Below, piece by piece: positions 35,542 to 61,897 of a stretch of DNA of 64,000 nucleotides. Positions within the stretch are counted from its first letter, which is position 1. Every line of letters starts with the position of its first letter. Position numbers and translations under genes: made by a program. The stretch lies in the NCBI GenBank assembly GCA_010356995.1, contig ML996709.1:262606-326605 (forward strand). The letters run 5' to 3'. Source of the DNA: Trichodelitschia bisporula (taxonomy: Eukaryota; Ascomycota; Dothideomycetes; Phaeotrichales; Phaeotrichaceae). The notes under the pieces were generated by a model that had not been told where the DNA came from, made no database searches, and was given only the letters and a program-made list of their open reading frames with translations.

Positions 35542-36954
35542 ATGGACGCCGCGAAAGCTGATATCGAACTAGGCACTCGAGCACCGCTGCAGCGCTCAGA
35601 TGACCAGCGGCGGAGTCGCCACGCCGGAGACTCTGATGAAGATTCCTATGGTGAAAATCACCTCTCGGACCACGATGTTTAAAAGGTTGCCTTTGAGCCC
35701 CTCGACGATGGGCGCCGCCGCAACCAGTTCTACCTCGTCTCAGACGGGTCTCGCGACGCCGAGGGCGAGTTTCTGCACGAAGCATCCAACATTCCTCTTC
35801 CATCGACTATCTCGACCACACAATATCCAAGCACAGTCTCCTCAAAGTCTACCATAAGCACCAGGGAACGGCTTAGGCGGGAGAAATATGAGCGACGGCG
35901 GAGAAATGACACAGATCGAACGCGGCGGAACCGAGAGATACATGAGCACCAGGAAATGCCTGATGAGGAGGCGCGGGAGCAGAGAGAAAATCGGCAAAGG
36001 GAATGGCTTCGTCTAGAACAAGATGCGACATGGGCCGTGTGGCAGGCGAAGACTCAGCGCAGCCAGTGGCTTAGTCGAAGAAACAGGCCGAAAGAGCTAG
36101 TGAAGAAACCGGAACAGCGCGCAAGACGGGGACCTGAATGGTCCCTGTGGAAGAGAATTTTGCAGGAGCTGGAGCCGAAGTTACAGGTGCCGGAGCCGAA
36201 GTTACAGGAGCTGGAGAGGACATTGCAGGAGTCGAACCGGACGTTGCAGGAGCCAGAAAGGACGTTGCAGGAGCCGGAAGGGGCATCGCAGGAGCCGGAG
36301 CAGGGGGGTGGCGAGCACGGCAAGCGGAAGGAGCAGGATAATGAAACACTCAGCAAGCAAATCGGGCAACAGGCAATGACCTATATGGAAAAGATGCAAA
36401 AGCACTTGTTCCTGGAGCGGGGTCGTCAAGACCTCGAGCAGAAGCGTCTGAGCCTGGAGTGGGACTTTCATAAACTGGAGATGGAGGAATGGTTCTGTGG
36501 TAAACAGCTAACGCTGGAGCCGCCCAGCTGGGTGCGATATGAGGAGCGGGAGGTGTCCTTCGATAATGGGAAAGGGCTGGCGACCCGCTGGGTGAAAGAC
36601 GATGATCGAGAGCAGCGGGACACGGAGCTGAAACGGAAGCGTCGAGCCCTGGGCTCGCACCGGCGGCATCTGGACTCGCAGCGTAGGGACCTACAGCGGG
36701 ACAAACTGAACTTTGCTCAGGAGCTGAAGCGGAATTGGAGCTGACATGAGCCAGAAGAGGACCGGGTGCACCCCGAACAGAAGATGGAGACGGTTTGGCA
36801 AAGAGAGCTGAATATGCGAAACACTGAGCTGTGGCGCTATCAGGAGCAAATACGTTGGTATCAGGAGCAGATGGAGTTGTATCGGGAGAAGATGGAGGAG
36901 GCTCAGCGGCGTCTACATGCCCTCCCCGCTTATGGGGATGCCGATATGTTTTAG
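35542..36954 (+). pseudogene. IPLPST-family member A, charged coiled-coil protein with in-frame stops
   Basis: One frame (frame of 35542) runs through the whole stretch but has stops near 35680 and at 36742. It opens M-D-A-A-K-A-D-I-E-L-G-T-R-A-P-L, like M-A-S-E-Q-A-A-L-E-P-S-T-L-A-P-L of member B. Then comes F-L-H-E-A-S-N-I-P-L-P-S-T-I-S, an Arg/Glu-rich segment with E-R-L-R-R-E, repeats of (L/T)-L-Q-E-(L/P)-E from 36163 to 36300, heptad-like coiled coil (E-Q-K-R-L-S-L-E-W), and a last helix Y-Q-E-Q-M-E-L-Y-R-E-K-M-E-E-A-Q-R-R. Because similarity to paralogues continues across both stops, they are either recent lesions or read through. No enzymatic domain; function unknown. Confidence 0.55.
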
Positions 36955-37710: not shown

Positions 37711-37803
37711 AGCTGAAGACAGCCAGTGGTCCATAACTCGCCAGCTTCTCACCCCATCGCATGTCCGCAGTGCGACCTACGGTACACATTTTCTCCCAGA
37801 ATC

Positions 37804-39780
37804 ATGGCCTCCGAGCAAGCTGCACTCGAACCGAGCACTCTAGCTCCACTGAATTGGTTCACCAGACATCCTAATCTTTCCATCGAAGATCTCCTCGCGG
37901 TAGACAACGCGAAAGCCATTTCCCTCAAAAATCCAGGCAATCCCGAGGGCCAGTTTCTACACGAAGCCAGCCTCATTCCACTCCATTCGACCAGCACGCT
38001 CTCACATTATGCAAGCACGATCTCCATTCCGTCCCCCGAAACCGCCAAAGAACGGCTTAGGTTGGAGCGGGGTGTGCATGGGCTGGGGAGGGAATGGCCG
38101 CAGCGGGGGGAAAACACGGATCAAAAACAGCAAGTCGTCCAGGCCGTTGAAGCGGCGGCCATCGGACGCAACTACGGCAACGATGACCTCGCAATTGAGA
38201 CGCATCCACCTGAGGTTACCGTGACTAGACTGAGTGTACGCTCCGAGGATAAGCATTCGGTGCGCCCGGCCCCTTCTACCGCTTCCACCAACAACCCAAA
38301 GTTGTTGAGCGAGGTTGAGGATGCTATCCGCCGCTTCATTCTGCCTGAACTCGATGCTCTGAAGGAGGAGCAGCGCATGCATAAGAGACAGGAAGCGCTT
38401 ACACGGGAGTCGCAGGAGCTGGCGCAGAGTCAGGAACAGCGCGCGAAACAGCGTTCGAAGCGAATGACTGGCAAGCTCAAGGAGCCATCGCCAGGGAATG
38501 GAACCCGGAGCGCGAGACGGGTGCAGGAGCGGAAGTCATCCAGGGAGATAACAAGGGAATGGGTGAACGAGCAGAAGTCCCGGAAGCCGGAGCTGCGAGA
38601 AGCGAAGTCACAGGAGCCGGAGCTACAGGAGCAAACAGAGACTAAGCGGGCGACATCGGTAATATTGCCGGAGGAACTGGTACCGCTGCGGAGTGTGGCG
38701 ACATTCGGAATATTCCAGGAGCTCGCGCAGATATCACAGAAGAGGAAGTCACAAGTGAGCAAGTCGTCGGCACCGGCGAAGAATCAGGAACAGCGCTCGA
38801 GAGAGAAGCCGAGCCGCGGAGGCGGGGATGGGAACCGGGAGCCGATGCGGAAGTTGCAGGAGCCGGAGTCGCAGGAGTCAAACGCGCAGAAGCCACAGAC
38901 GCAGGAGCTAGAGACACAGGGGCTAGACTTGCAGGAGTCGCAGTCGCAGGAGTCGGAGTCGGAGAAGCCGGATTCGGAGATGCCTCAGTCGCAAGAGGGA
39001 AAATCGCAGGAACCCACGAAAAAGAAGGAGCGGCGCTCGAGCCGGGGGACGGGTTCCAGAGGTGGGGAGAGGAGTTGGGAGCCGTGGAAGTTGCGCCCGA
39101 GCCGGTGGACGAGTTCCAGAGCTCGGGAGGGGAGTGACGAGCCGACGTGGAACTCGCAGAAGCTGGAGTCGCAGAAGCTGGAGTCGCTGGAGCCAGAGGC
39201 GCAGGAGCCGGAGTCGGAGAAGCCGGATTCACCGGAGCAGGAGTCGCAAGAGCCGAAGTCCTTGGAGCCAAAGTCGCAGGAGCCGGCGAAAAATCAGCAA
39301 CAGCGCTCGAGCCGGAGGTCAGATTACGGAGGCGAGGAGAGGAATTGGGAACCGACGCGGAAGTCGCAGAAACTAGGGTCACAGGAGCCTGAGTCACAGG
39401 AGCGACAGCCGCAGGAGCCGGCAAAGGTTCAGAAATATCGCACGAGACGGATGTTGAAGCACCGTAGTCGGGTACTCGAGCACGCGCGGAAGCGTCGGGT
39501 CCTGGACTCGAAGCGTAGTGACTTTGAGTTGCACCGTCTTCTCCGGGACGAGAAACGTAAGGACATGGAGGAAGATGAATCATCCTTTATTGAGGAACTG
39601 GAGCTGGAGAGGGCTCAAGGGAAGTTAGATGGGGAATGGGAAGAAGAGGATGACGTACTCTTCGAATATCAAATGAACTTTATGAGGGATGAACAGAGAG
39701 ATCGGCTAGTGTACGAGATGGAATGGCATAGGGCGGAGATGGAACGTACCGAGCGGCAATTTCGAGAGCTGGGTTTTTGA
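37804..39780 (+). CDS. IPLPST-family member B, long charged repeat/coiled-coil protein (intact)
   Basis: 658 residues in one frame. I chose the ATG at 37804 over the upstream one at 37726 because M-A-S-E-Q-A-A-L-E-P-S-T-L-A-P-L matches M-A-T-E-Q-V-Q-L-E-L-N-T-L-V-P-L of member C. The family box F-L-H-E-A-S-L-I-P-L-H-S-T-S-T lies near residues 54-68, followed by E-R-L-R-L-E. Residues about 190-555 are low complexity: S-Q-E-P-E-like units inside larger repeats that each start near (A-K-N-Q)-x-Q-R-S-S-R and contain G-N-R-E-P / E-R-N-W-E-P. A charged helix region and M-E-W-H-R-A-E-M-E-R-T-E-R-Q-F close the protein. Only this member keeps a single open frame, so it is the best candidate for a working copy. 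It is probably cytosolic or nuclear; there is no signal peptide. Function unknown. Confidence 0.62.
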   Translation: MASEQAALEPSTLAPLNWFTRHPNLSIEDLLAVDNAKAISLKNPGNPEGQFLHEASLIPLHSTSTLSHYASTISIPSPETAKERLRLERGVHGLGREWPQRGENTDQKQQVVQAVEAAAIGRNYGNDDLAIETHPPEVTVTRLSVRSEDKHSVRPAPSTASTNNPKLLSEVEDAIRRFILPELDALKEEQRMHKRQEALTRESQELAQSQEQRAKQRSKRMTGKLKEPSPGNGTRSARRVQERKSSREITREWVNEQKSRKPELREAKSQEPELQEQTETKRATSVILPEELVPLRSVATFGIFQELAQISQKRKSQVSKSSAPAKNQEQRSREKPSRGGGDGNREPMRKLQEPESQESNAQKPQTQELETQGLDLQESQSQESESEKPDSEMPQSQEGKSQEPTKKKERRSSRGTGSRGGERSWEPWKLRPSRWTSSRAREGSDEPTWNSQKLESQKLESLEPEAQEPESEKPDSPEQESQEPKSLEPKSQEPAKNQQQRSSRRSDYGGEERNWEPTRKSQKLGSQEPESQERQPQEPAKVQKYRTRRMLKHRSRVLEHARKRRVLDSKRSDFELHRLLRDEKRKDMEEDESSFIEELELERAQGKLDGEWEEEDDVLFEYQMNFMRDEQRDRLVYEMEWHRAEMERTERQFRELGF

Positions 39781-40293: not shown

Positions 40294-42579
40294 GTGGGCC
40301 TCCACCCCACCTCGCCGCCAGCTCTGCATCTCGCAACTATCACCGACGCCGTGAGTTTGGCCATCTCTGGGACCAAAATGGCCCGTTTTGCTGTGTTTTC
40401 ACAGTTCAATATGGAGGAGGTCGGGTCTCCGCCAGAACGTCGGGCGTTCGGCGTCGATGGCCATCGCGAGGAGGACCCCATCGAGGCTAGCTGGACCCGT
40501 TGGGATATCCGGAGATCCACAGTCCAGACACCCGATGCACGGAGTCCTAGCCATGCGGACGTCATGCACCACCAAGAGACTCCGCATCCGAATCCCCTCG
40601 ACCTCACTTCGCCCGGTGCCCAGACTGGAACCAAGGCCATTCAAAACACCACCGCAGCCAGCTCCACTCGCCAGAGCACCTCCGCACAACACTCCGCGCT
40701 GAAACTTGACGCCCTAAATCCCATGTTGATGTCTCGAGATTTACGAATAGCCTACAGCAGCGCCCTGGAAGCTCCTGGAGAATATGGGCCGCTCTACAAC
40801 CCGTATGTGTTGAGCACTACACAGGCGACCACAAAACCGGCCAGATATCAACCGCTGACTTCCTTGCAACCTCCTGCGGCCACGAGCTCACCCCTCACCA
40901 TTCCAAGCATCCCGACACACAATTTCAGCTTATCGTCTAGGTCTGCCGAGCCCGGAGCTGAGGTACCTTCCACGGTTGTTTCCACGTCGCCTCTCTCGCT
41001 CGTTCCGACCGCCTCTTCACAGCAGGTCGACGCCTCAGGGAAACCGCACCTCGAATCTTACAAGTGCCACTTGTGCATTGACGAGTTTCCCGCCAGCGAA
41101 ATCATCGCTCTTTCTTGCACACACGCCTCCTGCACCGACTGTCTCAAAGCCCTCTTCCTTCACGCAACCGCAAACGAGGCTCAATTTCCTCCGCGCTGCT
41201 GTCGGCCAATCCCCTTAGCCTTGATCGCCCCCGCTCTTTCTTCGGCCGAGTACTCTGCATACGTTGCCGCGTCAGAGGAGTTCTCCACCCCGAACAGGAC
41301 ATACTGCTCCAACCGCACATGCGGGCGCTTCATTTCGCCGAACTACATCTCAGCCGAGCTCGCCATCTGTTCCGCCTGCGGTACCTCAACCTGCGCACAC
41401 TGCAAGAACAGCGCGCATGCCGACGCCTGTTCCTCAGACGAGGATCTCCAAGCCGTGCTCGCGCTGGCGAAGGAGAAGGGCTGGCGCCGCTGCGGCCAGT
41501 GCCGCAACATGGTCGAGAAGACGGTCGGGTGCTACCACATCAGCTGTACGTGCGGCTTCCAGTGGTGCTACCTGTGCGGCGAGAAATGGAAGGGTTGTGA
41601 TTGTCGCCGCGTGGATGCGCCGCCGCCACGGACGGTGGAGGAGCAGCTCCGGTGGGAGCAGCGAGGGGAGCAGATGCGGCTCAGGCGGGAGCAGCGGTTG
41701 CGAACGCGGCGGGAGCGGCGGGAGCGTGAGATGCGAGAGCGGCGGGAGCGACTGGAGAGAGAGCGGCGAGAGGAGGCTGAAAGGATGTTACAAAAGGAGC
41801 GACTGGATTCCTGGTGGGCGAGGTACCACCGCGACCAACAAAAAAAGATGGAGTCGTGGGATCTTGAGAACACGGCATGGCCATTTCTGCCGACTTCGGT
41901 ATTCGCGAACCCGCCTCCAACATCCGGGCAGGGGGCGGAGCGGCTCGACTCGCGGGGGTTCGAGCTGTCTGGAACTTGGTGCTCGCTAGAGCCAGCGAGT
42001 GAAACATTGGATCCGAGAGATGTGGCATTGAGGCTTCCACATCAAGCACCCGAGTCGGCGCCTGGGAACATAAAGCGAAATAAAAACCCACTGGAGTTCG
42101 ACCCCTCTACGATATGGCCCTCGCTGGAGTCGGAAATTGCATCCGTGGATCCGTGGGAGATGATGTCGGCTCTCCCACTAGAGCTAGACGCGTTCGAGCC
42201 GGAGCTAGGAGATACAACGCGAAGGGGAGACTTGTTGGAGCAACAGTCCAGGGAGCGGTTTGAACAAGTTCGAGAGGACCGAGGTCGTCAGCAGGAGATT
42301 GAGCGAGACGAGGGGGGCCGTGAAGCGCTCAAGCTCCGTCAGCAGCAGCAGGAGTGGATGCTCGATGTTATGGCACTGCAAGGTGTCACCCAGCAGGCTG
42401 ATCTGCAGGCGGGATATCTCATCACCGGTACAACGAGGTCAGGTTTAAGCGGCCAGGCGGACATACTCAGCAGAGAGCAGGCCCGGGAGAGTGCCTGGAA
42501 ACGTGACCCCACGGGACTGGAGGAGACCATACACATGGACGACCTGAGAGGGGCTTCTTGGATGGGTAGATTGAACTGA
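40294..42579 (+). CDS. RBR (RING-IBR-RING) E3 ubiquitin ligase with coiled-coil tail (RBR1)
   Basis: Intronless, 761 residues (a start at 40378 is also possible). The Ser/Thr/Pro-rich front has no domain. RING1 begins C-H-L-C-I-D-E-F near residue 258 with C-T-H-x-x-C-T-D-C-L and P-P-R-C-C. The IBR follows with R-T-Y-C-S-N-R-T-C-G-R-F-I and C-A-H-C-K. RING2 runs from C-G-Q-C near 399 to C-D-C near 438, with the expected catalytic cysteine in V-G-C-Y-H-I-S-C-T-C-G (Cys413). RBR ligases receive ubiquitin from an E2 on this cysteine and pass it to the substrate. An Arg/Glu-rich coiled coil (445-520) and a charged tail follow, resembling in composition the neighbouring IPLPST proteins. Paralogues RBR2 and RBR3 lie 14-20 kb downstream and carry an intron inside RING2 that is absent here. 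Confidence 0.82.
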   Translation: MGLHPTSPPALHLATITDAVSLAISGTKMARFAVFSQFNMEEVGSPPERRAFGVDGHREEDPIEASWTRWDIRRSTVQTPDARSPSHADVMHHQETPHPNPLDLTSPGAQTGTKAIQNTTAASSTRQSTSAQHSALKLDALNPMLMSRDLRIAYSSALEAPGEYGPLYNPYVLSTTQATTKPARYQPLTSLQPPAATSSPLTIPSIPTHNFSLSSRSAEPGAEVPSTVVSTSPLSLVPTASSQQVDASGKPHLESYKCHLCIDEFPASEIIALSCTHASCTDCLKALFLHATANEAQFPPRCCRPIPLALIAPALSSAEYSAYVAASEEFSTPNRTYCSNRTCGRFISPNYISAELAICSACGTSTCAHCKNSAHADACSSDEDLQAVLALAKEKGWRRCGQCRNMVEKTVGCYHISCTCGFQWCYLCGEKWKGCDCRRVDAPPPRTVEEQLRWEQRGEQMRLRREQRLRTRRERREREMRERRERLERERREEAERMLQKERLDSWWARYHRDQQKKMESWDLENTAWPFLPTSVFANPPPTSGQGAERLDSRGFELSGTWCSLEPASETLDPRDVALRLPHQAPESAPGNIKRNKNPLEFDPSTIWPSLESEIASVDPWEMMSALPLELDAFEPELGDTTRRGDLLEQQSRERFEQVREDRGRQQEIERDEGGREALKLRQQQQEWMLDVMALQGVTQQADLQAGYLITGTTRSGLSGQADILSREQARESAWKRDPTGLEETIHMDDLRGASWMGRLN

Positions 42580-54969: not shown

Positions 54970-56587
54970 ATGGATTATTCATGGGACCAATACGAGGACA
55001 TGGACGACGCGTCTTTCGCGCTCGCTTTGCAGATGGAAGAAATTGAGAACGGCCGCAAGGACGCGGACAACGAGTCCCTCATCGACGCCTTTGAAGCTGA
55101 GATCCAGAATGTGCTGTCCAAGAAGCGTGCACGCAGCATTGCCCGCTCCCCCGCCCTCGCAAATCCCAGGTGACACTCCTTGATACTCTTTTGCTTGCAC
55201 TGAGCTGACCTTTCTATAGCACAGACTGGGATCTGATCGAACTGTCGTCGTCGTCAGAGAGCGAAGACGACATAGAAATGTGGGAGGAGATGCCCGAATA
55301 TTTCTCAAAAGAACCCGTCGACCCCTCCGGCCCTTCTACAATCCCACCTGGTCAAGACAACGTCGACCCCTCCGGCCCTTCTACAAGCGCACCTGATCAA
55401 GACGACGTCGCGCCTCAAAGTGTGGAGAAGCTGCCGGAAAAGCTCACCTGTTCGGTGTGCTTTGAGAGCCACCCTTCCTCGCAGATTGCTCACTTAGCGT
55501 GCACGCACCAATACTGTTTCGAGTGCTTGAAAGACCTTTTTCTGCGTGCTACCAAGGACGAGTCCCTCTGCCCGCCGAGGTGTTGCAAGACGGTCATTTC
55601 CGTTAACTTGATAACTCCGCACCTCTCAGTGGAGGAACTCGAGACTTACAAGAGTTCTGAGCTCGAGTTCTCCACCAATGACAGGACCTACTGCTACAAT
55701 TGCAAACGCTTCATCCCCCCAACCAATATCAAAGCGGGCAAAGACGGGGTGCACTGCTCGACTTGCTGGCAAAAGACCTGCGTCTTCTGCAAAAATGCTT
55801 TTCATACCGGCGGTTGTCCCGAAGATCCTGCCCTTCGGCGCACACTGAAGCTCGCGGAGCAGAAGGGCTGGCAGCGCTGCAAAAGGTGCAAATCGATGGT
55901 AGCACGAGAGACGTAGGTATCCACATGTCGCTGAAGATCATTGCTGACTCGCCAGGGGCTGCCTCCACATTACGTACGCTCTTCCACCTATTGACATTCC
56001 TGATTAACCCGGCTAACCCGCGCAGCTGCACTTGCGGCTTCAATTGGTGCTACTGCTGCCAGAAGCGGTGGCAGACATGCCGGTGCACTGAGGCGACTCT
56101 TCGGGCGCTGAAGAGAAAACGCATCGCAGACTCGAAGCGCCACGCTCTCGCCGACGGGGAGCCAGTAGAAATCTCAAAGCCCCGCAAACCCGCCCCGAAG
56201 AAGAAGAAGAAGCGTACGACAGCGGTTTCGGAAGCAGGCCCGTCATCAGCAGCCCCTCGCGTTCCGCCCGCGCCATCTGGCCTCATGACACCGATCTCGT
56301 GCATATCGGCTTCTGTGGCCACCGAAGCTACCCTGAGAGGCGAGCTGCTGAGCTGGGTCGAAACCACGGCTAGCCGGTTGTCGCAGGAGGTGGCGGACCG
56401 AGTTTCTGCAGAGCGCGGATCGCCCGAGCTGGTCTTCCTTGGATCGAATCCGCGGACCGGTGCGGGGTCTGCGCTTCGAGGTCAGGGCTCGAGTGTTCGT
56501 CCTTACGAGTTCGTCGAGGACGACACGATCGATCTGGAGGCTATGAGTCCTCCGGCGAAGCGCCGGCGCGAATCGAGCCGTGCGTGA
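54970..56587 (+). CDS. RBR E3 ubiquitin ligase with an 18-nt exon carrying the catalytic cysteine (RBR2)
   Basis: Four exons, 54970-55169, 55220-55912, 55956-55973 and 56026-56587, give 490 residues with all phases consistent. RING1 starts C-S-V-C-F-E-S-H near residue 141 (C-T-H-Q-Y-C-F-E-C-L, P-P-R-C-C), IBR follows (R-T-Y-C-Y-N-C-K-R-F-I, C-V-F-C-K), and RING2 begins C-K-R-C near 287. Without the small third exon RING2 would lack the conserved G-C-x-H-I; with it the sequence reads R-E-T-G-C-L-H-I-T-C-T-C-G-F-N-W-C-Y-C-C, with Cys300 as the ubiquitin acceptor. Donors GTAGGT and GTACGC and acceptors GCCAG and CGCAG fit. The N-terminus is acidic with a D-P-S-G-P-S-T repeat; the tail is basic (K-K-K-K-K-R) and then variable. 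Paralogue of RBR1 and RBR3. Confidence 0.85.
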
Positions 56588-57311
56588 GAGTGTTCTATTT
56601 TGTGGCGTGCGGATGACGATTGGAAACGAGGCAGTGTGATGTGGCGGTGTTCCGCTGGTCGGAGGCTGGTTTTCTTTTGTACTCTGCAATGCATGTGATT
56701 ATGATAGAAACATCTTATGACTGCATTTATCGCTTGAAGTTGCGCTGAAGTGCTGATGGGAGCCAAAGGAACACCCGACACCACTGCAATGCAGGCCTTG
56801 CTCGAGTTTGCAAGCGGTCCGCGACAGTGCTCAAATAACTCATGTTTGAAAGCTTCTGTCGATGCTAATGATCATCCTCCGTCGAAACCACCGGGGGAAT
56901 CCGCCAGCTTTGTGTTCCATTGTAGGGTGACTCGCTGCACGCTGCCGTTAAGTCACTATGTTAAGCCCTTTGATCCCCATCTAATTCCAGAGACACAGCT
57001 GACAAGAGAAGTAACAGGACCCGGAAATAAAAGCCTATTGTTCACCTTGGTGTCTCGCACTTTGTCCACGCTGTTAGAAAGCCAGACAACTATTATTGGG
57101 AGGTGCATAAAAGCGAGGCTGCAGCTGGCCTTTCTATCTCCTCTACCACAACACATCTTCTTGCGCACATCATCCATTGCCGAGAAGTATCTGATTTCGA
57201 CGCACTAGGATACGAAAGTTGGACCGATTCCTTACAGCGCACCTCCGGCTCCCGCACTTCTAACTCATCAAGCAACATGGCGTGGCAATAACGTATTTAT
57301 TTGGGTTTTGG
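56588..57311. other. Intergenic stretch, no supported gene
   Basis: About 720 bp between RBR2 and member C (convergent). A 152-codon frame at 56750-57208 has no recognisable motif and I leave it out. Confidence 0.45.
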
Positions 57312-58114
57312 TTACGCTTCTCCAAGGCTCCGCCTTTGCATCTCCTTGCATCTCTCCACCATCTCCAAATAAAACTCCATGTGCTCTTGATGATGCTCCA
57401 TCTCTCGTCGATGACGCTCCGTCTTCTTCCGATACTGCTCTAGCTGTATCTTTGGCCTGTCGCGTTCCAACTGCCGGTCCCTCGCCGTGTTCCATACAAG
57501 GCGCCGGTTAACATCGTCATTCGCCGGCCCCTCGTCTGGCTTCTCCAGACTCCCGGTCCAGTCTACCTCATGAGCCCAGTTATGCTCATCCTGCTCCAGA
57601 CGGTGCTGTTTCCGCTTCAAGTCGACACGCTCCCGCTCCAGACCCCGACGCTCCAACTCCACAGTCGAGCGGTTCTCCTTTTGCTGTAATCCGCCCCGGT
57701 ATCCTGCCCCGCCGGCTCGAGGTGTACGTCATCCTCCTGCTCCTTCCGCTCGGGTCCCTTACCACTCCACCCCAGCTCCACCCGCGCACTCTGTTCCCGA
57801 TCCCTTGCCGACTCCTGCGGCATCCGCAACCATTCGTCCTGCGCCTGCTTCCCTTAACGGCGTCTTTTCAAGCTCTCAGGATCTTCCCGGTCCCAGGTGT
57901 GTGTGGAAGGCTGAACGGACGAGTTCGCATAAATTGAGCTCGATACGGTGGACCGGAGTGGAATGTTAAGGGCCTCATCGAGAAACCGGCTCTCATCGTC
58001 GGTAGACCCGTCTGTGGCCCCATCTGAGACGGGGGATGACTGACCGGGGCGGTCACCTCGCCGCTGAAGGGGAACTAGAGTGTTCAATTCGAGTTGAACT
58101 TGTTCTGTAGCCAT
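57312..58114 (-). pseudogene. IPLPST-family member C, disrupted
   Basis: The start at 58114 gives M-A-T-E-Q-V-Q-L-E-L-N-T-L-V-P-L, then S-R-F-L-D-E-A-L-N-I-P-L-R-S-T-V-S-S. A stop follows near 57855, but the same frame continues (D-E-W-L-R-M-P-Q-E-S-A-R) before shifting near 57690 into the frame of L-E-R-R-G-L-E-R-E-R-V-D-L-K-R-K and the last helix H-Q-E-H-M-E-F-Y-L-E-M-V-E-R-C. With one stop and one shift it is probably a decayed tandem copy next to member D. Domain order matches members A, B and D but the middle repeat region is much shorter. Confidence 0.55.
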
Positions 58115-58476: not shown

Positions 58477-59456
58477 TCACTCCTGGGCTCTTTCCATCAT
58501 CTCCCAGAAAAACTCCGCCTGTTCCCCATACCGCTTTATCTCCAAACTCAGCATGGCCCGCTGTCTCTGTCGGTCCGTCTCGATTTCCCGCTCGTGGTGC
58601 ACGTCATCCTCCTTTGCTCATTCCCCTCTAACTCCTGTAGGGCCTGTTGCAGCTCTACCCGCTTCTTAAATTTCATTTCATCCTGCTCAAGGTCATGGCG
58701 CTTCTGCTCTAACTCTCGTCTCTCCTCGACCTCCCACTCCTTTGCTGCCTCCTGCGACTTCTGCTCCTGGAGCTTCTGCTCATCCCACTCCCTTAACCTT
58801 AGCTCCCGCCGCACCTGCCGCTCGTGCAGCCTCCGCTGCTGCCGTATTCGCACCACTTTCAACTCCTTCAGCTCAAAGTCCGCTTGCACCAGATGCTCCA
58901 GCTCTTCCTCTTTTGTTAGCCGCTTAATATCTTCCCGCATCTGCCGGTGGCTCGCTTCACGCGTCTTCCGCTCTTGCCCTCCCTGCTCGAACTCCAAGTC
59001 ATGGCGCTCAAACACAGTTGGCGCTTGACGGTTGCCGTTATCCTGCCGCCTTATGTATTCTCACGCCCCCCACTCGCGCGCTTCACGAGTCTTCTTCTGC
59101 TGCTGCCAGTCTCTGTCCCGGTTATCTGGCCTCCGCAAATATGCCCGTTCTTTAGCGTTGGTGGAGGACCGGCCGGGAACTGGGGTTGCGCTCGAGGAAT
59201 GCGATGGGAGGGGAATGCGTGACGCTTGGTCTAAAATGTCTGACTCGGAGTCACTGAACCGGTATGCGACACCAGGGAGAGGCGCGATGCTATTCGGGGC
59301 TTTGAAGGAAACGCTTTTTGTGTCATGGGCTGAGAGATACCCGTAATCTTCAGCGAGGGAATCTTCGACTGTGGCGTGGCGAGTCTGCCGCTGGCTCTCT
59401 GGCCCCGGAAGCGGAACTCTAGGGCCCATTCTGAGTCCATTATGTACGGGCGCCAT
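58477..59456 (-). pseudogene. IPLPST-family member D, disrupted
   Basis: From 59456 the frame reads M-A-P-V-H-N-G-L-R-M-G-P-R-V-P-L-P, later S-D-S-E-S-D-I-L-D-Q-A-S-R-I-P-L-P-S-H-S-S-S. A stop near 59062 is followed by the same frame through a long charged coiled coil (V-F-E-R-H-D-L-E-F, E-W-E-V-E-E-R-R-E-L-E-Q-K-R-H-D-L-E). Near 58620 the similarity shifts frame and ends Y-G-E-Q-A-E-F-F-W-E-M-M-E-R-A-Q-E, the family's terminal helix. Leader sequences of C and D are alike, so they arose by tandem duplication. Confidence 0.55.
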
Positions 59457-60660: not shown

Positions 60661-61897
60661 ATGGAGACCAACATGAACCCCGCGGCCATGGCAATCGAAT
60701 GTTCAGTTTGCCTCGAACTTCTTCCGCCGCACCAAGTCATTTCGCTGACTTGCGGCTGCAAATACTGTCTGGGTTGCATGGACCGCGTGGTCAAGCTGGC
60801 GACGAACCGGGAGGCTCATTATCCGCCCCGGTGCTGCCAGTGGCCCATTCCCGCCGACACCATGTTCGTTGCTCTGCCGCAGCAAGTGGTCGAGGAGTTC
60901 ATGGCTGCCAAACGGGTCTGGGACTCGGGCAATCGCACCTATTGCTCCAACAAGACGTGCGGAAAGTTCATCGATCCGATCCACATCGTGTCTGGCGAGG
61001 CGAGCTGCCCCTGCAGGACGAAGACATGCTCCCAGTGCAAGAATGCTCACCACGACGGGTACTGCTCCCGGGTTGACGAGCGGGCCACCGCATGGTCCTT
61101 CGCGCGGGAACAAGGCTGGAAGATCTGCCACAAGTGCGGCTACATCATTGAGCTCGAATCTGGCAGCTACCACATTATGTAAGTTCTATGTACATATTGT
61201 CGCTGACGCTAACGCTTGCAGCTGTCTCTGTCGGCATGAGTTCTGCTACTCTTGCGGTGCGGCGTGGAAGACCTGCAACTGCAAGGTGTTTGAGGGTGGG
61301 CCCGAGGTCCAGGCTTCGCAATATGCGGCATCTCAGAGCCAGCATGAGCCTGCCGGACAGCTCGTCCTTTATGGCGCGCCGCCTCATCAAGGGCCGTCTC
61401 CCTCTCGTGGGCAGTCTCCGCATCAAGGACAGTTTCCGCACCAGGGACAGGCTCCGCACCCAGGATACTTTCCTCACCAGGGGCAGTTTCCTCACCAGGG
61501 ACAGTTTCCCCAACCGACCTACTATTCCCACGGACAGTTTCCACAGCACGGCCAGTTTCCGCAGCAAGGCCAGTTTCCGCAGCACGGCCAGTTTCCGCAG
61601 CAGGGGCACTCTCATCAACAGGGACAGTTTCACCAGCAAGGACACTTTCCCCACCCGCAGCAGTCCGAGCCTGAGGGGATCCCCGATTTCGCGCTGTGGG
61701 AACGTTTGCAAAAGCACTGTGAACACCCGGGGCAGTTTCACAGAGTGATGCTCCGGCGTGGCGGCAGATGCAAGATGTGCAACATATGGGTCCACAAATT
61801 TCTGCTTACGTGTAGGGAGTGTCATCTGGAAGTCTGCGAGCAGTGTCGCCACGAGATGAACCACTTTGGTAAGTCAAAGAGCCCGCGGAAGGATTAA
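60661..61897 (+). CDS. RBR-like protein lacking the catalytic cysteine, with H-Q-G-Q-F-P repeats and a C-terminal zinc module (RBR3)
   Basis: Exons 60661-61178 and 61222-61897 give 397 residues. I take the ATG at 60661, just before RING1 (C-S-V-C-L-E-L, residues 14-62, with P-P-R-C-C); the IBR has R-T-Y-C-S-N-K-T-C-G-K-F-I and C-S-Q-C-K. RING2 reads C-H-K-C-G-Y-I-I-E-L-E-S-G-S-Y-H-I-I-C-L-C: the position of the ubiquitin-accepting Cys is Ser169 (AGC, 61165-61167). All zinc ligands nearby are kept (C-Y-S-C-G, C-N-C). The intron interrupts the codon just before C-L-C, at the same place and phase as intron 3 of RBR2. Residues about 230-325 are six-residue repeats (P-Q-H-G-Q-F, 18-bp unit). A last module C-K-M-C...C-R-E-C...C-E-Q-C-R-H looks zinc-binding. 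It may bind E2s or substrates without transferring ubiquitin itself (inference). Confidence 0.85.
61425..61665 (+). repeat. 18-bp coding repeat (Q-F-P-Q-H/Q-G units)
   Basis: Repeats of CAGTTTCCGCAGCACGGC and variants, about a dozen copies, more regular towards the 3' side. They encode the Gln/Pro/His-rich low-complexity segment of RBR3. Confidence 0.85.

Follow-up and report, generated by a model that had tools for sequence, protein, structure and literature searches.

A predicted 18-nt exon encoding the catalytic cysteine of an RBR ubiquitin ligase in Trichodelitschia bisporula

RBR ligases accept ubiquitin from an E2 on a cysteine of the RING2 domain and pass it from there to the substrate. 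In a putative RBR gene of the ascomycete Trichodelitschia bisporula, the codon for this cysteine lies on a stretch of only 18 nt between two candidate introns. The locus thus raises the question of whether so small an exon is real and, if it is, whether its inclusion and skipping could control the activity of the ligase. In the present study, we examined the gene in a window of 64,000 nucleotides (contig ML996709.1, positions 262,606 to 326,605 of the forward strand), which is the whole stretch of DNA that was analysed; all coordinates below are those of the window. The gene was modelled as follows.

54970..56588 (approximate limits), plus strand: whole RBR gene, with RING1, IBR, and RING2 in this order; model of 490 amino acid residues from the ATG at 54970 to the stop at 56588
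54970..55169, plus strand: exon 1, with the start ATG at 54970 and an N-terminal acidic region
55170..55219, plus strand: first intron, 50 nt, with a weak donor and the branch sequence CTGAC 11 nt from the acceptor
55220..55912, plus strand: exon 2, with RING1, IBR, and the first two zinc cysteines of RING2; Pfam IBR match of 34.1 bits
55913..55955, plus strand: upstream intron, 43 nt, GTAGGT...CTGAC...CAG, phase 2
55956..55973, plus strand: tiny exon GGGCTGCCTCCACATTAC, 18 nt, encoding G-C-L-H-I plus parts of two Thr codons
55974..56025, plus strand: downstream intron, 52 nt, GTACGC...CTAAC...CAG, phase 2
56026..56588, plus strand: last exon, beginning CTGCACTTGCGG, with the later RING2 zinc ligands, basic Lys/Arg-rich stretches, the C-terminus, and the stop

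Exon 2 ends with ...GAGAC, and split Thr codons (AC|G and AC|C) stand on either side of the tiny exon, so that the spliced reading across the site is RCKRCKSMVARE-T-GCLHI-T-CTCGFNWCYCC. The catalytic Cys of RING2 is residue 300 of the 490-residue model; it is encoded by the 18-nt exon, as is the His two residues on. The codon scores were highest in the coding frame for exon 1 (0.274, versus -0.143 and -0.449 in the other two frames) and exon 2 (0.111 versus -0.283 and -0.209); the score of the last exon was weak (0.021), with the coding frame still the best (-0.293 and -0.113 in the others). The first intron was chosen from two donor-acceptor pairs tried, as the one by which exon 1 is linked to the RBR frame in a reading of 490 residues. 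As its donor, GTGACA, scores lower than those of all 30 introns sampled from the genome (see below), the boundary between exon 1 and the first intron is the least certain of the model; the N-terminus should be regarded as less certain for this reason, and the RBR region would be unaffected.

The order of RING1, IBR, and RING2 indicates that the gene encodes an RBR E3 ubiquitin ligase. Of the Pfam families matched, only IBR gave a match above its own cut-off (24.3), and it did so both with the tiny exon and without it (34.1 and 29.8 bits, respectively); the RING-type, IBR_1, and IBR_2 matches were all under theirs. The IBR_2 match reached 18.6 bits (E 0.0021) with the tiny exon, under the curated cut-off of 27, and was not reported at E<=1 for the form lacking the exon. 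The best sequence matches in the PDB were the RING2 chains 2lwr_A (SD01679p, E 4.3e-06) and 9c5e_A (Parkin, E 4.5e-06), which align through the tiny exon, GC.H on GC.H. By position, Parkin RING2 matched at residues 145-181 (E 4.5e-06) and ARIH1 RING1, weakly, at residues 3-60 (E 0.013). The predicted protein resembles Parkin and ARIH1 in its domain order and in having the RING2 catalytic Cys followed by x-His; this GCLH motif depends on inclusion of the 18-nt exon. Unlike Parkin RING2, in which four residues lie between the two cysteines after this segment, the protein has one residue there, after H-I-T, as do its nearest paralogs. In an alignment of four paralogs, the G and H of the segment and the flanking RING2 cysteines are invariant and the cysteine pattern is shared, and the catalytic Cys is replaced by Ser in one paralog. 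Among the 12 homologues described below, the His after the catalytic position is kept in eight and is Asn, Lys, Lys, and Ser in the others.

To what extent is the exon itself distinguishable from a chance arrangement? We enumerated the splice structures of the region 55797-56163 with zero, one, or two GT-AG introns of 38-130 nt and donors after about 55837, and obtained 148 structures, 29 of which were free of stops. These were scored against a RING2 profile made of eight peptides from paralogs in the same genome, with the query left out; the paralogs on C17 (L008), in which an apparent intron interrupts RING2, and C25 (L020), in which RING2 was not found, were omitted. The two-intron model ranked highest with 41.6 bits, versus 21.2 for the next structure and 15.0 for plain skipping. 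Thus, none of the remaining stop-free structures across the region came near its score, and they were rejected as alternatives. In a shuffle control, the 113-nt interval containing the two introns and the exon was subjected to 100,000 dinucleotide-preserving shuffles, in which the outer GT and AG were kept. Although some in-frame, stop-free internal exon appeared in 13,108 of the shuffles, a Cys was placed at the right spacing in only 515, and an exon of the form x[GN]Cx[HN] was found in none of the 100,000 shuffles of this interval. At 18 nt, the exon is within the length of coding microexons (<=30 nt), and GT...CTRAY...AG signals lie on both sides; it would thus belong to this class. The original prediction had placed the catalytic Cys alone on an 18-nt exon at 55956-55973, and the coordinates, sequence, frames, 41.6-bit profile fit, and shuffles all agree with it. 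We have high confidence that the predicted structure is real.

With both flanking introns in phase 2 and an exon length of 18 nt, skipping of the exon keeps the reading frame. Inclusion gives 490 residues with a complete RING2, and skipping gives an in-frame product of 484 residues that has lost the catalytic Cys and the His two positions after it. Retention of either flanking intron truncates the protein inside RING2. In the case of the 43-nt intron, the retained sequence meets an immediate stop (ACG TAG, the TAG at 55914-55916), and the product of 298 residues ends just before the Cys; in the case of the 52-nt intron, the product of 314 residues contains the Cys but loses the later zinc ligands. 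For the exon to be skipped, the donor at 55913 must be joined to the acceptor at 56025 over an intron of 113 nt. No GT is present at the junctions AGAGAC|GGGCTG and CATTAC|CTGCAC, for which only the annotated acceptors were tested. As no donor is rebuilt at either junction, a stwintron (spliceosomal twin intron) and recursive splicing were ruled out for these acceptors.

The splice signals were compared with introns sampled from the same genome. A hexamer coding score, tried first as the filter, was too strict and gave two candidates, and was replaced by the codon score; a heuristic combining codon score and splice signals, applied to 260,181 bases (26,347 of them N), then gave 102 candidates, of which 30 were kept. 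The sample is small, and it is incomplete, since the introns of the RBR genes were all missed by it. The sampled introns were 41 to 118 nt long (median 46), with 23 of the 30 at most 48 nt, 24 at most 52 nt, and 29 at most 71 nt, so that the 113-nt intron of the skipped form exceeds 29 of them; the call of the single 118-nt intron, inside which a 49-nt GTGAGT...TAG stretch is nested, may be wrong. The upstream intron (43 nt) is near the median in length, and its donor scored at or above those of 16 of the 30 sampled introns; the downstream intron (52 nt) is on the long side, and its donor scored at or above 13 of the 30. The distance from the branch A to the acceptor is 8 nt in the upstream intron and 9 nt in the downstream intron, and was 7-11 nt in 26 of the sampled introns. 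The donor, branch site, and acceptor of both flanking introns are therefore ordinary for this genome, and not weak. An introner-like, repeated origin of the upstream intron was also considered and rejected: when the 43-nt intron was used with its flanks as a 90-base query, the only match in the genome was the query itself, in a search that skips common words and is thus a weak test.

We compared 12 homologues that were readable across the site. Nine are from the same genome, two of them in the window, as listed below, and the others on C22, C5, C15, C18, C3, C7, and C17; the remaining three (L043, L044, and L045) are from contigs labelled bacterial, and the set is without a close orthologue. 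The candidate on C25 was excluded from this count because its RING2 was not found; the C17 paralog was counted for the upstream site though it is absent from the RING2 profile. A pattern search gave 161 matches in bacterial and archaeal contigs, including these three relatives, and 153 matches in viral contigs, none of which was a relative. The two paralogs in the window are as follows.

40294..42579, plus strand: paralog 1, RBR gene in a single ORF with an ATG at 40379 inside; 48% identical over the RBR region
60661..61897, plus strand: paralog 2, RBR gene with one intron at 61179-61221

Paralog 1 has the RING2 sequence GCYHISCTCGFQWC and no introns. The upstream intron was absent in all 12 homologues (paralogs or distant relatives), all of which read without a break between the second zinc Cys and the catalytic position. 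At the downstream site, two of the 12 share the intron, nine are uninterrupted, and C17, with a possible donor 2 nt beyond the site, stands apart and was not counted as sharing it. The 43-nt intron of paralog 2 follows CAC ATT AT and agrees in position and phase with the intron at 55974; L043, counted on its donor only, reads CAC ATT AC|GTATGT, and its contig ends before any acceptor. As nine homologues do not have the downstream intron, its age rests on these two. The simplest history places the downstream intron first and has the upstream one gained later, along the lineage leading to this gene; repeated loss elsewhere may also account for the pattern. The tiny exon thus probably arose when a second phase-2 intron, seen among the homologues only in the gene at 54970-56588, landed 18 nt upstream of an older phase-2 intron just after the H-I-T codons; by this insertion, the six-codon stretch with the catalytic Cys would have become a separate exon. 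Since the 12 homologues are not close orthologues, their lack of the upstream intron does not fully exclude a function of the arrangement, and conservation gives it no support.

The L043 sequence (L043:3001-3486, NYXK01000172.1) is from a contig titled as a Deltaproteobacteria MAG; it codes for an RBR of fungal type, and the gene has a spliceosomal donor. We infer from this donor that the contig is probably a eukaryotic contaminant.

Very short coding exons have been described in filamentous fungi. In Trichoderma virens, Xlr2 contains a 20-nt microexon that codes for part of a zinc cluster, and its expression is glucose-dependent [PMC11121469]. The two genes are alike in that a very short coding exon carries cysteines of a zinc-binding domain (PCRRCE in Xlr2), and the Xlr2 microexon was reported to have been missed in the annotated gene model [PMC11121469]. 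They differ in that the Xlr2 exon is not a multiple of three and belongs to a transcription factor, whereas the exon of 18 nt is part of a putative enzyme; furthermore, the Xlr2 microexon was reported to be conserved across the Trichoderma species analysed and to depend on glucose by RNA-seq [PMC11121469], whereas the RBR exon is a prediction from the sequence. The 15-nt exon II of Aspergillus niger rtnA is likewise a tiny in-frame exon in an ascomycete, for which both inclusion and skipping were reported; the skipping there runs via a stwintron whose excision rebuilds a donor [PMC6616335], an arrangement that is not present at the RBR exon. Plant microexons are also tiny coding exons, and they are often misannotated or omitted from gene models [PMC8831610]. 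Our literature search found no paper combining RBR, RING2, catalytic cysteine, and exon skipping, and no title on an RBR splice switch was among the matches listed for splice isoforms of inactive ubiquitin ligases.

We consider it probable that the exon is a real and constitutively included microexon, made by the gain of an intron beside an older one in an otherwise ordinary fungal RBR ligase gene. Intron definition, in which splice sites are paired across introns, is described as prevalent in fungi, with retention as the leading form of alternative splicing [PMC4324775, PMC3925392, PMC6616335]; in T. longibrachiatum, retention accounts for 93.4% of the alternative splicing events, and the same report quotes 91.56% for A. 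oryzae [PMC4324775]. By this mode, the spliceosome would most likely remove each of the two short introns separately, so that the tiny exon would be included by default, and the protein would then work as other RBR ligases do, with ubiquitin passing via Cys 300. A failure of splicing would likely leave one intron retained, with a stop inside RING2, rather than skip the exon. The original prediction had gone further and proposed that splicing switches the ligase between active and inactive forms, in that conditional skipping would give a full-length, Cys-less ligase that binds E2 through RING1 and is inactive or dominant-negative. The coding consequences that it described stand, namely a complete RING2 with the exon and an in-frame form of 484 residues without the Cys, and regulated tiny exons do exist in filamentous fungi, as in Xlr2 [PMC11121469] and rtnA [PMC6616335]. 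The switch itself found no support, and we regard it as unlikely: the splice signals are not weak, the 113-nt intron that it needs would be longer than 29 of the 30 sampled, the fungal papers favour retention, and an in-frame length would be expected by chance in one-third of cases. Moreover, no donor is recreated here in the manner of rtnA [PMC6616335], and the authors of the Xlr2 study report no reads joining exons 1 and 3 [PMC11121469].

If regulation occurs at all, it could instead proceed by retention, the stop inside RING2 lowering the amount of active ligase, perhaps via nonsense-mediated decay. The truncated products of 298 and 314 residues and the predominance of retention in the two species mentioned above fit this proposal, as do the retention of Xlr2 intron 1 in some T. 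reesei transcripts [PMC11121469] and the tendency of introns flanking plant microexons to be detained [PMC8831610]. However, truncation by retention is expected for many fungal introns and is nothing special to this gene, and we regard retention as a means of control here as quite unlikely. Very doubtful is an extended form of the skipping proposal, in which the gained intron created an in-frame Cys-x-His cassette whose level of inclusion would set the ratio of active to dead (possibly dominant-negative) ligase, with paralog 2, bearing Ser at the catalytic position, as a hard-wired dead counterpart. It is highly improbable that the gene is a broken relic, in which the 43-nt stretch is left unspliced and the protein ends at the TAG before the catalytic Cys. 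Read-through from exon 2 does meet that stop and the codon score of the last exon is weak, but the splice signals on both sides are complete and typical, the motif and its spacing are exactly restored by splicing, which no shuffle achieved, and the exon downstream is open, with its best codon score in the coding frame.

The 18-nt exon thus joins the known fungal coding microexons, and that it appears to carry the active-site residue of an enzyme is an appealing detail. If the structure alone is right, the gene neatly illustrates how intron gain can isolate an active-site residue, and it is also a hazard for annotation: because the frame stays open without the exon, a predictor that missed it would record a ligase lacking the catalytic Cys. 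If skipping were regulated, the gene would be a clean system in which to test how splicing controls the activity of an E3 in a fungus, since the two products differ by six residues at the active site.

The three RBR paralogs (40294-42579, 54970-56588, and 60661-61897) occupy one strand of the contig (C23) and a span of no more than 22 kb. Eight further loci with IBR matches (E<=1), two of which are under the family cut-off, are on eight other contigs. In paralog 2, the zinc cysteines of RING2 are kept, with Ser at the catalytic position (GSYHI; ELESGSYHIICLC), and RING2 is followed by Gln/His/Pro-rich repeats and then by another Cys/His-rich segment. As a natural Cys-to-Ser RBR protein, it could be inactive or trap ubiquitin. 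By eye, Arg/Glu/Gln-rich open frames were seen on the minus strand between the second and third RBR genes (57312-57728 and 58548-59060), and comparable charged frames were seen on the plus strand at 35956-36744 and 37726-39780.
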